From the NCBI RefSeq assembly GCF_013423955.1, contig NZ_JACCKX010000004.1:1-64000 (forward strand): a stretch of DNA of 64,000 nt, in the 5' to 3' direction. Positions 49,301 to 58,575 of the stretch are shown here, piece by piece; position 1 is the stretch's first letter; each line of letters opens with the position of its first letter. The translations under genes were made by a program, and so were the position numbers. The notes under the pieces were generated by a model. The model searched no databases. It was not told the DNA's origin and saw only the letters and a program-made list of their open reading frames with translations. The DNA comes from Ottowia beijingensis (lineage in GTDB: Bacteria; Pseudomonadota; Gammaproteobacteria; Burkholderiales; Burkholderiaceae_C).

Positions 49301-51785
<2,485 letters not shown>

Positions 51786-51880
51786 GCGTGCGTGCCGCGC
51801 GGCGGCATGCGCCGCCCGGCGAGTCGAGCGGGGAAGTTTGCCACAGCAGATGCCGCGCGCCGCAGGCGGCACGGGCAGGA

Positions 51881-53162
51881 TCAGGCCGGGGCGCGGCGCC
51901 GTTCCGCCGTCGGCTGGATCAGCGCCGCCATGGGCACCTGCAGGCGCACGCGCGTGCCCTCGCCCGGCGCGCTTTCCACGCTCAGCTGGCCGTGCATCTG
52001 GCTGGCGCGCAGCACCATGCCCGAAAGGCCTTTCCCGTGCGACGCACGGTGCGGTTCGCCCGACGACGCGGTGCGCGCATAGCGCTCGTACGCCATGCCC
52101 TTGCCGTTGTCGGCGATTTCCAGCAGCAGCGCGTCGGCGCTGTTCATGTGGCAGCAGCTCAGCACCACGGTGTCGGCGCCGGAATGCCGCACGGCGTTGG
52201 CCAGCGCCTCCTGCGCCACGCGCAGCACCTGGCGCGCGGCGGGCCCTTGCGCGCGCTCGAGCTGCTCCTCATCGACCAGGCGCCATTGCAGATCCATGCC
52301 AGCCGCAGCCAGCAACGGCTGCATGCGATAGCGCAGGCTGGCCAGGTGACTGACGACCGAGCCCTCCTCGTTGATGCCATCCACCAGGAGCTTCAGCTCC
52401 AGCAGGCATTGCTGCAGCGTGGCGGCGGTGGCGCGCTGCTCGGGCGAGCCGGCATCGAGCGCCGAGATGAGGGTGGTCAGCTGCGAGCCCACGCCATCGT
52501 GCAGGTCCTGGGCCAGCTGGCGTTGCACCTGGTGCGCAGACGAGCCGCCCTCGCCGATCGATCTGCGCGAGTTGCCGACGCGCTGCGTCAGCGCCAGCCA
52601 CAGTACGAACAGCGCCACCGCAAAGAAGTAGTGCGAGACCGACACCAGTGCCGGCCCATCAGCGGCCTGCCGCAGGTCGGTCAGCACCACGCCCAGGCCC
52701 AGCACGGCCACCAGCAGCACCATCCAGCTCTCGGCATCGGTGCGGCGCCAGATGGCGTGCGCCAGGCGCAGCACCAGGGCGGTGATGCCCAGCGCATTGA
52801 CCCAGAACCACGCCTGGCCCCATCCGGCCGGCAGCGCGGCCGCCTGCAGCGGCGCCAGAAACAGGCCGAGCGCGGCCTGACTGGCCATCAGCACCTTGTC
52901 GCCCCAGCCCAGGCCCCGCACCCAGGCCATCAGGAAGGCCGACACGGCCAGGATCGTGAGTTGATAGCTGCCCCGTGTGGCGGCCCGCACCACTTCATCC
53001 GGGGCACCCAGACGCCCCAGTTCGCCGGCCGCCAGCAGGGCGGACCAGGCCAGCAGCGCCAGGCCATAGCGCAGATCGCGCGTATCGCCACGCTGGCGCC
53101 AGCCCAGCAGGGCGTAGCCCGCCAGGCCGGCTCAGCAACAGCACCGGCCACATGATGGACAT
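51881..53162 (-). CDS. Membrane sensor histidine kinase, NarX/HisKA_3 type
   Basis: About 425 residues. Several N-terminal membrane helices ([11 protein letters not shown]..., [54 protein letters not shown]) are followed by the H-box [19 protein letters not shown] and an HATPase domain ([43 protein letters not shown]). One frameshift near 53130. It ends the operon of the adjacent response regulator, which starts upstream on the same strand. The probable target is the divergent secretion operon at 54524-58575. Confidence 0.87.
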
Positions 53163-53236
53163 GGCTATCCGGCCCTCCTGCCGGTCATGGCCGGCACTGC
53201 CGCGACGTCAAACGGCCTGCGCGTCGACAGCGCTCA

Positions 53237-54026
53237 CTACAGCAGGCCACGCATCGACGCCAGGTTCACGGCCTGCGCTCGCGTTCGAACCTGCAGCTTG
53301 CGGTACATGTTCTTGATGTGCGTGTTCACCGTCTGGTCGCTGATGCCCAGGCGCTTGCCGATCTCGCAACTGGTGTGGCCCGTGGCCACCAGCCGCAGGA
53401 TCTCGCGCTCGCGATCCGACAGCTTCTCGCCCGAGGCCGCGCCGCTGGCATGCGCGGGCACGCCGGCAGCCCGTGGGCTGCCATCCAGCCGCTTCATCAG
53501 CCGGCGCGCCAGGTTGGGTGTGATCGACGCCCCGCCGTTGACCACCTGCAGCACCGCTTGCGGGAAGCTGCCGAACCAGGAGTTCTTGATCAGATAACCC
53601 GTGGCGCCCAATTCGAACGCGTGAATGGCGTGCTCTTCGTCTTCCATGGCCGACACCACCACCGCCTCGGCCACCGGCCGCATGCTTTTCATGTATTCGA
53701 TCAGCTGGAACCCGGTGCCGTCGCCCAGGTTCAGGTCGACCAGCATGACATCGAACTCGTGCAGCGCAATCAGGCGCTTGCCCTCGCGCAGCGACGCCCC
53801 TTGGCCCACCAGGTGGATGCGGGGTCGGTCAGCAACTCCTGCGACACCACGCGGCGCATGTGGGGTCGTCGTCCACCAGCAGCACCTGCACCGGCTGATC
53901 GGGCTGGCCGATGAGGAAGTCGGGCCAGCTCGATCCGAAAGTCATCGGTGCTGCAGGCTTGTCAACTGCCTTGCCCCCACGGCCCGGTGACGCCGGGTCC
54001 CTCCAGTCCATGTTGGTTGTGCTCAT
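53237..54026 (-). CDS. LuxR/NarL-family response regulator
   Basis: About 260 residues. An N-terminal extension (MSTTNMDWRDPASPGRGGKA) precedes the receiver domain (VQVLLVDDDP, phospho-acceptor Asp in VMLVDLNLGDG, VVVSAMEDEEHAIHAFELGA) and a C-terminal LuxR HTH (LSDREREILRLVATGHTSCE, VNTHIKNMYRKLQV). Frameshifts near 53865 and 53822. It pairs with the HisKA_3 kinase downstream. CsgD, the curli activator, is also a LuxR-type receiver-HTH protein, which makes control of the facing CsgG-like operon plausible. Confidence 0.88.
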
Positions 54027-54523
54027 GTCGATCCCCCGGCGCCTGCGTTTCGAAACATCTGTAACCCCTCCAAGCCTGCGACGCCTGCGACTCGGGAGCT
54101 GAACGCGGAGTTGTAAACATCTCCTGCGCACAAGTTGTGAACTTTGCACAAAAACTTAGGCTTTGTCACAACATCGAAGAGGGATATCCTGCGCTTCTTT
54201 TCCAATATTTGCAATAAACACTTTTTGTTACTACCCCATCGAAATCCGTTGAATGCTATCCAAGCAGGAGCTGCGCGCTGTTGTAGTGAGCCATGATCCG
54301 CGAGGTTGGAGCCCCCAAACACATGCCACATGTCCACCATACGACGTATCCATTTGTAGCGATTGGTGTCGGGCTGAATGCGCAGGACACTGCACCCCGA
54401 CGACACCGCATGACGAGCACCGAAAAACAGGGAGGCCGGATGCGGCGGAGTCACCCCCGGAACTGCTGGAATTCGCCCGCCGCTCCGGATCCGTGTCTCA
54501 CCACACCTTTGGAGGATCTCATC
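54027..54523. other. Divergent regulatory region between the response regulator and secretion operon
   Basis: 497 bp without a credible gene. It is markedly AT-richer than its surroundings around 54110-54380 (ACAAAAACTTAGGCTTTGTC; GCAATAAACACTTTTTGTTA), consistent with promoters and binding sites for both directions. The palindromic-looking ACATGCCACATGTCC lies at about 54320-54335. No sigma-54 element was found. Confidence 0.5.
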
Positions 54524-55036
54524 ATGAACGCGAAACTGCTTTTCCTGACCGCTGCGTTTGTCGCCACGTCTGCGATGGCCCAAGACGCAAGTTTTAAGCC
54601 GAAGGATCCACCGGCTCCGTCTCCTTCGCCGACGCCTGAGGCCTGCGACCTGTGCGCCCACGACATCGTCCTGAAGGGCCCGACCATCCAGGTGACCGCG
54701 CTGAAAAACACCGCTTCCATCGCCTGGGCCAGTGGCGCCGACTCCAAGGCCGTCAACAACATGTCCAGCAACACCAGCGGCGTGCTGATCGACCAGGGCG
54801 TCGAGTCGACCCAAATCACTGCGCTCAAGAACAGTGGCGTGCTGGCTTACGCAAGTGCCAGCGACTCGTATGCGAACAACAACCTGGCCAGCAACGTGGG
54901 CTCGGTCGGCGTCGGCGCCGACCAACTGCAGATCGTCCTCGGCAAGGGCGCCTTCCTGGCTGCCAAGGCCACTGGCACCGGATCCAGGGCGGTGCAGAAC
55001 TTCTCCAGCAACAACGCCTGCCTGACCTGCGAATGA
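54524..55036 (+). CDS. Secreted repeat protein, possible amyloid-like fibre subunit
   Basis: 170 residues with a signal peptide (MNAKLLFLTAAFVATSAMAQ) and a Pro-rich linker (PPAPSPSPTPEAC). Three imperfect repeats of about 35-40 residues follow: QVTALKNTASIAWASGADSK..NNMSSN; QITALKNSGVLAYASASDSY..NNLASN; QIVLGKGAFLAAKATGTGSR..QNFSSN. They are rich in Asn, Ser, Ala, Gly and regularly spaced Gln/Asn, as in curlin or HfaA-type subunits. CxxC motifs (CDLC, CLTC) bracket the repeats. The ribosome binding site GGAGGATC is strong. No named family was recognised; fibre formation is inference from repeats and context. Confidence 0.6.
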   Translation: MNAKLLFLTAAFVATSAMAQDASFKPKDPPAPSPSPTPEACDLCAHDIVLKGPTIQVTALKNTASIAWASGADSKAVNNMSSNTSGVLIDQGVESTQITALKNSGVLAYASASDSYANNNLASNVGSVGVGADQLQIVLGKGAFLAAKATGTGSRAVQNFSSNNACLTCE

Positions 55037-55060
55037 GCGATCAAAGGGCCTGAAGCGCAC

Positions 55061-55100
55061 GGCGGAACCGGTGGCCCCCGTCCCGGTTCCGCCGTTTTTA
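55061..55100 (+). terminator. Strong hairpin after the repeat-protein gene (terminator/attenuator)
   Basis: A perfect 10-bp stem GGCGGAACCG/CGGTTCCGCC (55061-55070, 55084-55093) with a 13-base loop, followed by GTTTTTATTC. It lies 25 bp after the stop and 23 bp before the next start codon. Partial read-through would make the first gene much more expressed than the rest of the operon. Confidence 0.85.
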
Positions 55101-55122
55101 TTCTTGTCGAAAGGGGATTGCC

Positions 55123-55559
55123 ATGAAGCTCAAGCTCCTGTCCATCGCCCCTGGCCTGGTTCTGCTTTGCGCTGCGCAGAGCGGCTGGGCGCAGTTCGCC
55201 CCCGCTCGGACCCGATCATGCTGAACGGTCAGGTCAGCTACCTGGCCCTGCCCGCTCCGCCGTTTCAGCCCTCGGGGCAAATCGAAAACGAAACGGATAT
55301 TCCGTCCTGGCTGCAGGCCAAGGTATCGCGCTATGAAGCCAAGGCTTTTTCCGCGCTCGAAGGCGGCAGCGGAACTGTCCAAACCGAGCGCGATGTCGTC
55401 AGCCGGCAGACCGGCAACGCCCTGCAGCGCACCTGCACCACGGAAGTGGCGAGCAACACCATCGCCCCTACCGCAGCCGGCCCTTCAGGCCGCTACGGCA
55501 TGAGTGGTGGAGACCAGATCGCGGTGCTGCGCGGCGACGTGGTCACCATCTGCAAATAA
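55123..55559 (+). CDS. Small secreted protein of the CsgG-like operon
   Basis: About 145 residues. A signal peptide (MKLKLLSIAPGLVLLCAAQS) is followed, after a frameshift near 55205, by DPIMLNGQVSYLALPAPPFQ, then ENETDIPSWLQAKVSRYEAK and CTTEVASNTIAPTAAG. It has two Cys in the mature part. Not recognised. The arrangement (small secreted protein between a repeat subunit and a CsgG-like protein) recalls minor subunits or chaperones such as CsgB/CsgE/HfaD, without visible sequence similarity. Confidence 0.6.
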
Positions 55560-55624
55560 GAAGCTGCGCGGCACGCCGCCAGCACCAGCAACTGAGAGGC
55601 TCGCCAGAGCGGAGGGAGGACATC

Positions 55625-57287
55625 ATGGGACACGGCAACTTCTCGGGCGCTGCCGAACGCGGAGGGAAAGCGCGGACATTGCTGTTCTGCGCTCTGGCCG
55701 CGGTCGCCGTCCTCGGGCTGCGCCACCCCGCTGTCGCCCAAGGAGGATGCCCTCTTCCAGTCCTACGCCAGTGCCACCGACCGGCCCGCCACGCGGCCGG
55801 TCCGCTCGATGTCCAGCTTCAGCGACTCGCTGGTCTGCATGGACCGGATGATGCGCGACGCCGAGGTGCCGACCACGCTGATCACCAGCAAGTACATCCC
55901 CGATTTCTCGGGGCGCGTGCCGGTGGCGGCCAAGGAAATGGTGATCACCGCGCTGTCGCAGATGTCGCGCCAGTCGAATGCGTTCCGCTACGTCGATTTC
56001 GAGGTCGACATCGCGCGCCAGGACACGGTGCAGAACCTGACCACCATCCTGCTCAACAACAACCAGATGGAGTTGCAGCGTCCGGCGCTGTATGTGTCCG
56101 GTGCCATTTCCTTCGTCGATCAGAACGTGCTGAGCAACCGGCACAGTGCAGGGCTTTCGGGCGCGCGCATCGAAGCCGGCTACGACCGCAGCCGCGCCGC
56201 CACCATCATCGGGCTGGAGATGCACCTGGGCGACTTTCGCACGCGCACGCTGATCCCAGGGCTGGACTCGGCCAACGAGGTCATCATGGGCACCTCGGGC
56301 CAGGGGCTGGATCTGGCCGGCCGCATTGGTACCTACGGTGTGCAGTTCAACGTCGGCCGCGACCTCGTGCAGGGCTCGGGCGCGGCGATGCGCACCCTGG
56401 TGGAGCTGGCCGCGATCGAGCTGGCGGGCAAGTGGACCCACCTGCCCTATTGGCGCTGCCTGACGCTGGACAACACCCACCCCGAATTCCAGCGCCAGCT
56501 GCGCGTGTGGTACGACGAGGGCGACCGCACCACGCGCTCGCGCATGGTGCAGCGCTATCTGGCGAGCCGAGGCTACCTCGCAGCGTCCGAAACGGCACTG
56601 CCACCGGGCCACGCCCTGCTGCGCGAAGCGGTCGGCCGCTTCCAGGCCGATGTGGGTGCGGTGGTCACGGGCGAGATCGACTTCCCCGTCTATGAGCGCG
56701 CTTTGCGCGATTTCGTGGCCGTGGGCGAAGACGGGCAGCTGGCGCGCGTCGGATGGGCCGAGTTGAGTGCTGGCCAGACGAAGATCGAACCCTTCACGAT
56801 CGATCTGCAGATCGAGAACACCAGCCGGGACCGCACGGCTTTCGAGGCGGGGACGCACATCTTTGCGTCGGCGACGATTTCGCGTGCCGCACACCTGTTC
56901 TGCTACATCAACGACGCCAATGGCAACATCGTCAAGATCCAGCCCAACATGCTGAGTCCCGAATCGCTGGTGTCGGCCAATCAGGCCATCCGGCTGCCCG
57001 ACTGGATGGTGCCTTATCCGGCGTTCGTGTTGACCGCAGGCGCCAAGGGCTCGGAAGCGCTGATGTGCGTGGCCACCAACGAAGACCCGATGCTGAAGAT
57101 GCCGCCTGAGCTGAACGTGCCCGCGCTGACCCGCATGCAGGGCGTCGCGTCGCTGCAAGCCTTGCGTGAGCAATTCGAGGCCGCGGTGGGTGCCGGCAAC
57201 ATGGCCGCGCAGACCCTGGAATGGCGCATCCTGCCGGCGCGCCCCGCTGCCGCAGCCGCAGCGGGCAAGAACGGCGCCGCCCAGTAA
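55625..57287 (+). CDS. CsgG-like outer-membrane secretion/anchor protein with DUF4384 domain
   Basis: About 555 residues. A signal region (ARTLLFCALAAVAVLGLRHP) with a frameshift near 55740 leads into a CsgG/HfaB-like domain at about 60-270 (SFSDSLVCMDRMMRDAEVPT, MVITALSQMSRQSNAFRYVD, ALYVSGAISFVDQNVLS, ATIIGLEMHLGDF, AAMRTLVELAAIELAGKW). A peptidoglycan-binding-like segment (LREAVGRFQADVGAV) and a C-terminal DUF4384-type domain (GTHIFASATISRAAHLFCYI) follow. No lipobox Cys is evident in the corrected leader. CsgG forms the curli export pore; the extra C-terminal domains are unlike CsgG proper. Confidence 0.72.
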
Positions 57288-57336
57288 GGCGACGCACGGG
57301 CCATGAGCACCGCAGCGTCAACATGCGGGCCGCCGG

Positions 57337-58575
57337 ATGCGCCACCCGCGCGGCGCGGACTGGCGCATGGGCATGGTCGCCACGAGCCTGCTGATCGCCT
57401 GCGTATCGGTACAGGCAGCAGCGCGGGCGGCAACGCTGCCTGAGATCCAGGCGCCGACCGCAAGGGTGCCGGATGTCCAGGCGCCCAGCGGTCAGGCGCC
57501 GGCCGTCAGCTTGCCGCGCAACCCGTTGCCGCCAGCCGATCCGGTGGCCAATCCTTCTCAGCGAGCTGCCGACCCTCAACTGGGGCCTGTGCGTGCGCCG
57601 GCATCGCCCGCGCTGCCGGAGGCGCGTCAGACGAGCAACCTTCTGGCCGATCCTGCCGTGCGCAGGGATCTGGACCTGCTGCGCCGCCAGGCACAACCCC
57701 GGTCGGGCTTCGGCAGCACCAATGCGGCGGCCAATGCCGCCTGGACGCTGGGGCTGATCGACCTGCACGGCGGCGCAGGGCCGCGCTCGACGGCCTCGGC
57801 GCAGATGTGGTTCGAGCGCGCAACGCGTTTCGGACGCCAGCCGCTGGCCAACGCCGGCCTGGCCTGGTGCGCACTTGATGGCTGCGCGGGGCCGCCCGAC
57901 ACGTCGGCCGCGCGGCAGGCCATCAACAAACTGCGTGCGCACCACCGTGCCCGGGCGCTCTATCTGGAATGGGTGCTGGAGAGCCGCGCACAACCCCTTG
58001 CCGTGCGCTCCAGTGACCCCCAGGGCGTGACCAGCCTGCGCTTGCCCCTGCGCCAGATGCTGGAACGCGCCGCAGCCGAGGGCGATACGCAGGCGCATAT
58101 AGAGCTGGGGCTGGAGGCCATCGTCAACGGCGATCTGCGCAGCGCGCAACATCTGCAGGCCGCGGCGCCGCACTCTGCGGCCGCGGCCAATCTGAAACTG
58201 CTCGATCTGAAGGATGCGCGGCCGGCGTCGGCCGCCGCGACGGAGGCCGATCGATTGCTGGAAAGAGCCCAGCGCGCGCACCGTGGCGTCGTGGTGCCTG
58301 CCAACTACGCGGAAGCCATGCGGCTGTACCAGGCCGCTGCCGCCCAGGGCAGTGCCGCGGCCAAGCGCATGCTGGCGCTGATCACATCCCGCCCGCAGCC
58401 CGATGGCACGATCAACATCGCCTGGATGTCGCAGCTGGCCTGGCTGGACACGGCCAACAACCTGCCGCAGCTGGACACGCGCTCGCTCTCCACCATGATG
58501 TACCGCGACCCAACGCCGTTGTTCGACCTGCTGCCCGACGAATGGCAGCGCCGGCTCAACACGGTACCGCGCTGA
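57337..58575 (+). CDS. Exported SEL1-like/TPR protein of the CsgG-like operon
   Basis: About 412 residues. A hydrophobic leader (MGMVATSLLIACVSVQAAAR) precedes a Pro/Ala-rich linker and helical SEL1-like repeats (AQMWFERATRFGRQPLANAG, YAEAMRLYQAAAAQGSAAAK, MLERAAAEGDTQAHIELGLE). SEL1 repeats mediate protein contacts, so this may be a periplasmic scaffold. An alternative start lies at 57303 or 57323. It begins within 50 bp of the CsgG-like stop and appears to be the last gene of the operon. Confidence 0.72.
   Translation: MRHPRGADWRMGMVATSLLIACVSVQAAARAATLPEIQAPTARVPDVQAPSGQAPAVSLPRNPLPPADPVANPSQRAADPQLGPVRAPASPALPEARQTSNLLADPAVRRDLDLLRRQAQPRSGFGSTNAAANAAWTLGLIDLHGGAGPRSTASAQMWFERATRFGRQPLANAGLAWCALDGCAGPPDTSAARQAINKLRAHHRARALYLEWVLESRAQPLAVRSSDPQGVTSLRLPLRQMLERAAAEGDTQAHIELGLEAIVNGDLRSAQHLQAAAPHSAAAANLKLLDLKDARPASAAATEADRLLERAQRAHRGVVVPANYAEAMRLYQAAAAQGSAAAKRMLALITSRPQPDGTINIAWMSQLAWLDTANNLPQLDTRSLSTMMYRDPTPLFDLLPDEWQRRLNTVPR

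Follow-up and report, generated by a model that had tools for sequence, protein, structure and literature searches.

In the betaproteobacterium Ottowia beijingensis, an operon opposite a two-component pair probably encodes an outer-membrane export or anchoring device of the CsgG superfamily that serves a repeat-built surface fibre or anchor. The operon lies in the piece from 53,237 to 58,575 of the window, which comprises positions 1–64,000 (64,000 nucleotides) of contig NZ_JACCKX010000004.1 (contig C4) in assembly GCF_013423955.1. The locus is real and conserved; most likely, it belongs to neither the curli nor the Hfa systems and represents a further CsgG-superfamily system for the export of a fibre or anchor. 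A sequence-only reading of the piece had described a curli-like operon of four genes facing a kinase and a response regulator. All of these genes are present, but four of them (those of the two-component pair and those at 55123 and 55625) have interrupted frames in the window, and the lengths of three products listed below are thus those of a second copy on the chromosome contig C1 (4.0 Mb; locus L030).

54524..55036, + strand: repeat subunit of 170 amino acids, with a signal peptide, CDLC, three repeats of about 39 residues ending (N/Q)N-x-(S/A)SN, and CLTC
55123..55559, + strand: small exported Cys-pair protein (g2), 145 amino acids in C1; window frame broken near 55205
55625..57287, + strand: CsgG/HfaB-superfamily lipoprotein with PG_binding_1 and DUF4384, 554 amino acids in C1; window frame broken near 55715
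57337..58575, + strand: exported Sel1-like protein, with its own Pfam match under the cut-off and those of relatives over it
53237..54026, − strand: LuxR-type response regulator; receiver-domain frame broken in the window
53820–53870, − strand: part of the response regulator in which the receiver domain is out of frame, at C-runs
51881..53164, − strand: sensor histidine kinase with HATPase_c and a weak HisKA_3 match, 427 amino acids in C1; window frame broken near 53130, intact in C1
54346..54392, + strand: promoter-like block GTATCC-N9-GATTGG-N19-GACACTG, upstream of the subunit gene

The C-terminal half of the 55625 product matched DUF4384 in Pfam (E 6.9e-8; 32.9 bits vs a cut-off of 27) and, below the cut-off, PG_binding_1 (E 2.1e-4; 21.8 bits vs 23), and these domains recurred in 18/18 and 17/18 aligned relatives, respectively. 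The N-terminal half had no Pfam match. PF03783 (CsgG), which the sequence-only reading had led us to expect, did not match the window's own protein and gave weak matches in 2/18 relatives (best E 0.043), whereas DUF4384 was found as anticipated. The HfaB model of NCBIfam gave an E-value of 0.0017 for the own protein and matched 14/18 relatives (best E 2.6e-6), all far under the cut-off; at 17.6 bits vs 300, the protein does not qualify as an HfaB equivalog. Profile–profile comparison by hhalign was made against 17 HfaB-type and 14 CsgG-type sequences (13 plus Escherichia coli CsgG), each assigned to the type that it matched better in BLAST. For the N-terminal domain of 20 members, the comparison gave 98.3% with HfaB (E 1.9e-14, score 104, 203 columns); with CsgG it gave 85.3% (E 6e-6, score 47, 181 columns). 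The controls, which were five column-shuffled alignments, the alignment in reverse and the C-terminal half, reached at most 0.7% and a score of at most 20. Furthermore, the distant member at locus L170, which also carries DUF4384, passed the PF03783 cut-off (28.0 vs 20.8 bits). Because of these profile matches and of L170, the N-terminal domain is placed, on sequence comparison, in the CsgG superfamily, nearer to HfaB than to CsgG. The alignments to both families cross the two-hairpin region of CsgG with short gaps only. A lipoprotein-type signal ending LSGC was seen by eye at the start of the C1 product, and the lipobox cysteine (C33) was invariant in 18/18 relatives and conserved in at least 90% of the wider set of 20. 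No relevant PDB match was obtained when sequence searches were run with the lipoprotein alone and with two profiles. The only PF03783 matches in the genome itself sit outside the locus, at L001 (G000:C1:1983293) and L002 (G000:C1:1444094), with E-values of 5e-4 and 0.08.

The gene set was compared over 40 loci, drawn from the genus itself, from other members of the Burkholderiales and from further classes of Pseudomonadota. Set apart from these were L033 and L034 (duplicates of L003 and L004), the C3 and window copies, L046 (a fragment), L077 (on a short contig), L125–L127, the partial phylum matches G505, G443 and G336, and L048, L049 and L173 (distant or partial); 16 control loci comprised the last three, 11 HfaB/CsgG loci and a further two from the own genome. 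A homologue of another locus's subunit lay within 3.5 kb in 34/40 loci (BLAST E <1e-4, self-matches excluded), and the Cys-pair protein was beside the lipoprotein in 33/40, all of which also have the subunit. Proteins with a self-similarity z above 5 were present in 30/40 loci, including L047, which has no subunit homologue and is not counted among the 34; in the control loci, 7/166 genes exceeded this value. The synteny that the sequence-only reading had proposed to search for is conserved, with the Sel1-like gene in one branch of the loci. Neither a lack of CsgG-fold support nor a non-solenoid subunit without co-occurring genes, either of which that reading considered would speak against it, was found, the fold support coming from profiles and not from structure. 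The Cys-pair gene was present in 19/19 comamonad-type loci. The lipoprotein occurred in 10/28 other genomes of the genus, in 14/300 genomes of the order and in 20/398 genomes of the phylum, 14 of them in other classes (the own genome and some partial matches are among those counted for the order and phylum). A second locus in the own genome, L031, is 39% identical and has a two-repeat subunit, a Cys-pair gene and a Sel1-like match, with no match for the divergent regulator; its subunit is matched by that of L162, from another class (E 2.5e-8). This second copy of the system (L031 6138–10761; G000:C1 near 2145473) encodes two short repeat proteins; in a protein encoded downstream, the fibre-type repeat seems to be fused with pentapeptide repeats (Pfam E 3.2e-16). 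By eye, an apparent sigma factor/anti-sigma pair adjoins the lipoprotein gene in L119, and a protein with an OmpA-like C-terminus follows it in L162, L163, L165 and L166.

The three repeats of the subunit had a summed pairwise score of 171, equalled in 0/2000 shuffles (largest 100), and the CDLC before and CLTC after them are as previously described. This three-repeat, CxxC-bracketed arrangement holds at the locus itself but not across the family: 19 homologous subunits have 2–7 repeat motifs, mostly 37–41 residues apart with some larger gaps, and several related subunits lack the N-terminal CxxC by eye. In the structural model, the same three strands occur three times (residues 54–79, 94–120 and 133–159), with a predicted local distance difference test (pLDDT) score of 69–88 in the strands and dips to 54 between them. 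Pfam and NCBIfam returned nothing credible for the subunit. The Pfam curlin model had no match in it at E-values up to 10 and none in ten further repeat proteins (nine relatives and one neighbouring repeat protein). The farther loci have neighbouring repeat proteins of other sequence, of the GNTNVNTNVxGGV and QNQSGLLN types. Profiles of the near and QNQSGLLN types matched CsgA/CsgB at no more than 0.8%, against 99.8% between CsgA and CsgB, and curlin was accordingly ruled out as the identity of the subunit. The QNQSGLLN-type subunits, at L120 (1703–2479), L121 (9000–9692), L122 (6637–7065) and L123 (6023–6652 and 9826–11001), look curlin-like by eye, though not by profile.

In the family of the 55123 product, two cysteines were invariant in 16 aligned members, between which a disulfide may form, and Pfam, NCBIfam and the PDB gave no credible match. 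Relatives at distant loci keep, with exceptions, the pattern C ... V-x-G-x-(V/I)-(I/V) ... C, and the near (16) and distant (10) profiles matched each other at 97.5% (E 6.6e-12). The count of 33/40 loci, against 0/16 control loci, was obtained with a 27-sequence model built from most of the sequences then counted. A model of 11 distant sequences found 8 near ones in the 28 remaining loci (E 6.7e-7 to 0.026), all adjoining the lipoprotein gene, and matched nothing else in those 28 loci; a near-only model gave two matches in 16 distant loci (E 0.004 and 0.43). In 2 of the 33 loci, L045 and L118, the gene is on the opposite strand. Identity with CsgC, CsgE or CsgF was ruled out, the profiles matching at no more than 1.1% (the CsgC side being a single sequence).

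The Sel1-like protein and the divergent two-component pair accompany one branch of the loci. Among comamonad-type loci with enough sequence, the divergent response regulator lies upstream in 17/17, the kinase in 16/17 (missing in L037) and the Sel1-like protein downstream in 18/18; in L007, which is cut short upstream, a similar regulator (48%) is found downstream instead. The LuxR-type regulator with a divergent kinase stands as first described. The domain names of the sequence-only reading fared less well: the HATPase domain of the kinase is clear but HisKA_3 scored 17.2 bits vs a cut-off of 24, and the gene at 57337 is present but its product matched Sel1 at 22.1–22.4 bits vs 30.7, a cut-off exceeded in 3/3 relatives scanned. 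Upstream of the subunit gene, a core GAT(T/G)G(G/C)-N18-20-GA(C/A)ACTG was found in 13/18 regions; one of the 18, that of L040, had a misplaced start and so could not show the block. In 300 simple shuffles the mean was 0.003 and the largest count 1. By eye, GTA(T/C)CC precedes the core by nine bases in 9/13, and a search for this box at a spacing of 10–14 bases gave 0/18 regions because the actual spacing is nine. The full block (N9), allowing at most three mismatches, occurs genome-wide only at this locus, in its three assembly copies. Read as a promoter, its TTGG is separated from GACACT by 17 bases, the spacing of sigma-70 sites; a generic promoter scan did not list the block. Immediately before the subunit ATG stands TTTGGAGGA, and TTGGAGGA was present in 12/18 upstream regions, in 11 directly before the printed start. 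The response regulator may act at the promoter block.

To account for this locus, we propose the following model. The 55625 lipoprotein would be lipidated and would form oligomers in the outer membrane by way of its HfaB/CsgG-like domain, with PG_binding_1 gripping peptidoglycan and DUF4384 in the periplasm. By analogy with HfaB, it may export the 54524 repeat protein, which would fold outside into a beta-solenoid and polymerise into a surface fibre or anchor. The pore would have a dedicated partner in the 55123 Cys-pair protein, which would take over the function of CsgE/CsgF without being their homologue, and the Sel1-like protein may act as a scaffold in the periplasm. Expression of the operon would be turned on by the divergent two-component pair via the single conserved promoter block. 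Repeat proteins that freely change sequence and repeat number beside the lipoprotein fit an exported polymer. The PG_binding_1 match points to a pore anchored in the cell wall, a feature not known from Csg or Hfa pores.

Several points weigh against this model. A literature search of partial coverage found no experiment on the system. A recognised subunit is missing in 6/40 loci and the Cys-pair protein in 7/40; both are absent in L047, L119, L124, L168, L169 and L171, of which L124 and L168 are at contig ends, and L170 lacks the Cys-pair protein only. The subunit model, although it shows the thrice-repeated three-strand coil, has a mean pLDDT of 61 from five sequences and found no significant fold match: none of its 63 Foldseek matches had an E-value below 0.001, the best being 0.23. 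The top of that non-significant list, which was not used as evidence, held several beta-solenoids, among them ice-binding proteins, FapC (rank 4, E 0.46) and a CsgA fibril (rank 12). The near and QNQSGLLN-type repeat profiles matched each other at 11.6%, and the two main repeat types are thus not clearly of common origin. With a less diverse lipoprotein alignment, the match to HfaB was 97.6% and that to CsgG 4.8%. The AlphaFold model of the lipoprotein had a pLDDT of 33.6 from six sequences, and Foldseek with this low-confidence model gave no meaningful match. Finally, the CsgG superfamily includes proteins that do not export amyloid, PelC and LpoB.

Among the alternatives, the one that survives best, though we consider it unlikely, is an HfaABD-like arrangement, in which the exported repeat protein, instead of forming a free fibre, would serve as a surface anchor tying exopolysaccharide to the cell. 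According to the part of the Caulobacter report available to us, HfaA and HfaD sit on the surface and hold the holdfast, and their placement at the outer membrane requires HfaB, which is compared with the CsgG pore (PMC6707917). In both systems, a CsgG-superfamily lipoprotein is encoded beside small and repeat-rich exported proteins, HfaB is the top profile match of the lipoprotein, which lies nearer to it than to CsgG, and an (F/Y)-S-x-x-L-x-C stretch and an I-x-D-x-(S/T)-G-(R/K) strand are common to both by eye; a PG-binding domain would suit an anchor. By eye, moreover, the distant locus L118 has DegT- and WbqC-like genes about 3–4 kb off, as in polysaccharide clusters, but no polysaccharide genes were noticed beside the operon in the other loci read, where no search for them was made. 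In addition, the neighbours of alphaproteobacterial hfaB look unlike the partners here (by eye comparison only), the fetched HfaB proteins are mostly shorter (most 284–349 amino acids, against 554), and the PG_binding_1/DUF4384 part of the lipoprotein does not match them (0.2%). An improbable alternative is that the lipoprotein is a periplasmic ring or envelope activator resembling PelC or LpoB, which exports nothing, and that the repeat protein is periplasmic or part of the cell wall. The PG_binding_1 and DUF4384 domains would agree with this, as would the low confidence of the lipoprotein model, which leaves the membrane hairpins without direct support; the crossing of the hairpin region by the profile alignments and the tight co-occurrence with an exported repeat protein argue for the pore.

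In common with curli, the locus has a CsgG-superfamily protein, an exported tandem-repeat subunit of varying repeat number and a LuxR-type regulator. In contrast to curli, its repeat is about 39 residues long rather than about 22, its pore protein has two extra domains, its regulator has a partner kinase, and no curlin, CsgE or CsgF was found. The two models for CsgE and CsgF (PF10614 and PF10627) each exceeded their cut-offs in 0/11 genomes, and sub-threshold matches of the CsgF and CsgE models occurred in 2 and 5 of the 11. The sequence-only reading was thus right about the missing csgE/csgF and the different partner set, while its term 'curli-like' proves too narrow for a locus whose pore is nearer to HfaB, whose subunit lacks a curlin match and whose 55123 product is none of CsgC, CsgE and CsgF. 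In the part of the survey by Dueholm et al. (2012; PMC3521004) that we could consult, csgE and csgF are described as missing from roughly half of the alphaproteobacterial genera with curli, and the absence of these genes alone is therefore not decisive. That the locus is ordinary curli whose CsgE, CsgF and curlin have diverged beyond detection is nevertheless very improbable, since the superfamily link, the LuxR-type regulator, the tandem-repeat exported protein and the QxGxxN-type repeats seen by eye in some distant members are outweighed by the preference of the lipoprotein for HfaB and by the curlin, CsgE/CsgF and Cys-pair results above. The Fap system (FapA-F) likewise has a repeat-built exported subunit but uses another outer-membrane protein, FapF.

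The genome (4.29 Mb in four contigs) is 89% complete with 5.2% contamination. Over the 12–13 kb compared, contigs C4 and C3 are 99.6% identical to C1, from which they differ almost entirely by small insertions and deletions (indels). Over this stretch (window vs L030 and L032), C4 and C3 are thus indel-rich near-duplicates of parts of C1, and such assembly duplication may be the source of the contamination value and of the broken frames of the window. Because the C1 copy is intact, the base losses seen in the window near 53130, 55205 and 55715 are most likely assembly noise, and pseudogenisation was dropped for the kinase, 55123 and 55625 genes. The response regulator is excepted: its frame is broken at two points in both the window and C1, and at one point in C3, in each case at short C-runs. 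We read these breaks as sequencing error, although they could be a real defect. Beside the kinase gene, a Tex-like gene (window 50450–51872, − strand) has, by eye, an apparent inserted repeat within its frame.

Our literature search, in which subscription papers were mostly outside coverage, returned no title or abstract describing a system with these partners, and nothing for CsgG combined with DUF4384. Of the CsgG-superfamily surface systems, the searched literature offered two whose gene sets are worked out, curli and Hfa. In the parts available, Dueholm et al. (2012; PMC3521004) attributed unspecific CsgG hits to probable paralogy within a larger family and recorded two Burkholderiales curli systems, and Neisseria MafA has been likened to CsgG (PMC7738311). 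The survey by Sleutel et al. (2023; PMC10192328), as far as its accessible part indicates, started from curlin repeats, and would thus not be expected to have seen this system. It is conceivable, although we rate it at somewhat less than an even chance, that the locus represents a further functional-amyloid machine of the CsgG superfamily, separate from Csg and Hfa, not described in the searched literature and present in about one in 20 of the sampled Pseudomonadota genomes, with a peptidoglycan-gripping pore lipoprotein, a Cys-pair partner replacing CsgE/CsgF and subunits that are beta-solenoids built from several mutually unrelated types of repeat as its hallmarks. Few genes are known for the amyloids of betaproteobacterial wastewater biofilms, and, if the above is true, the system could account for part of that amyloid. 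The lipoprotein family gives a profile handle on fibres missed by curli searches, as the Pfam CsgG model does not match the 55625 product, and offers testable amyloid candidates for the Betaproteobacteria of activated sludge. A different subunit, a new Cys-pair partner and a wall-binding pore would show which parts of such a machine are essential and which are replaceable.

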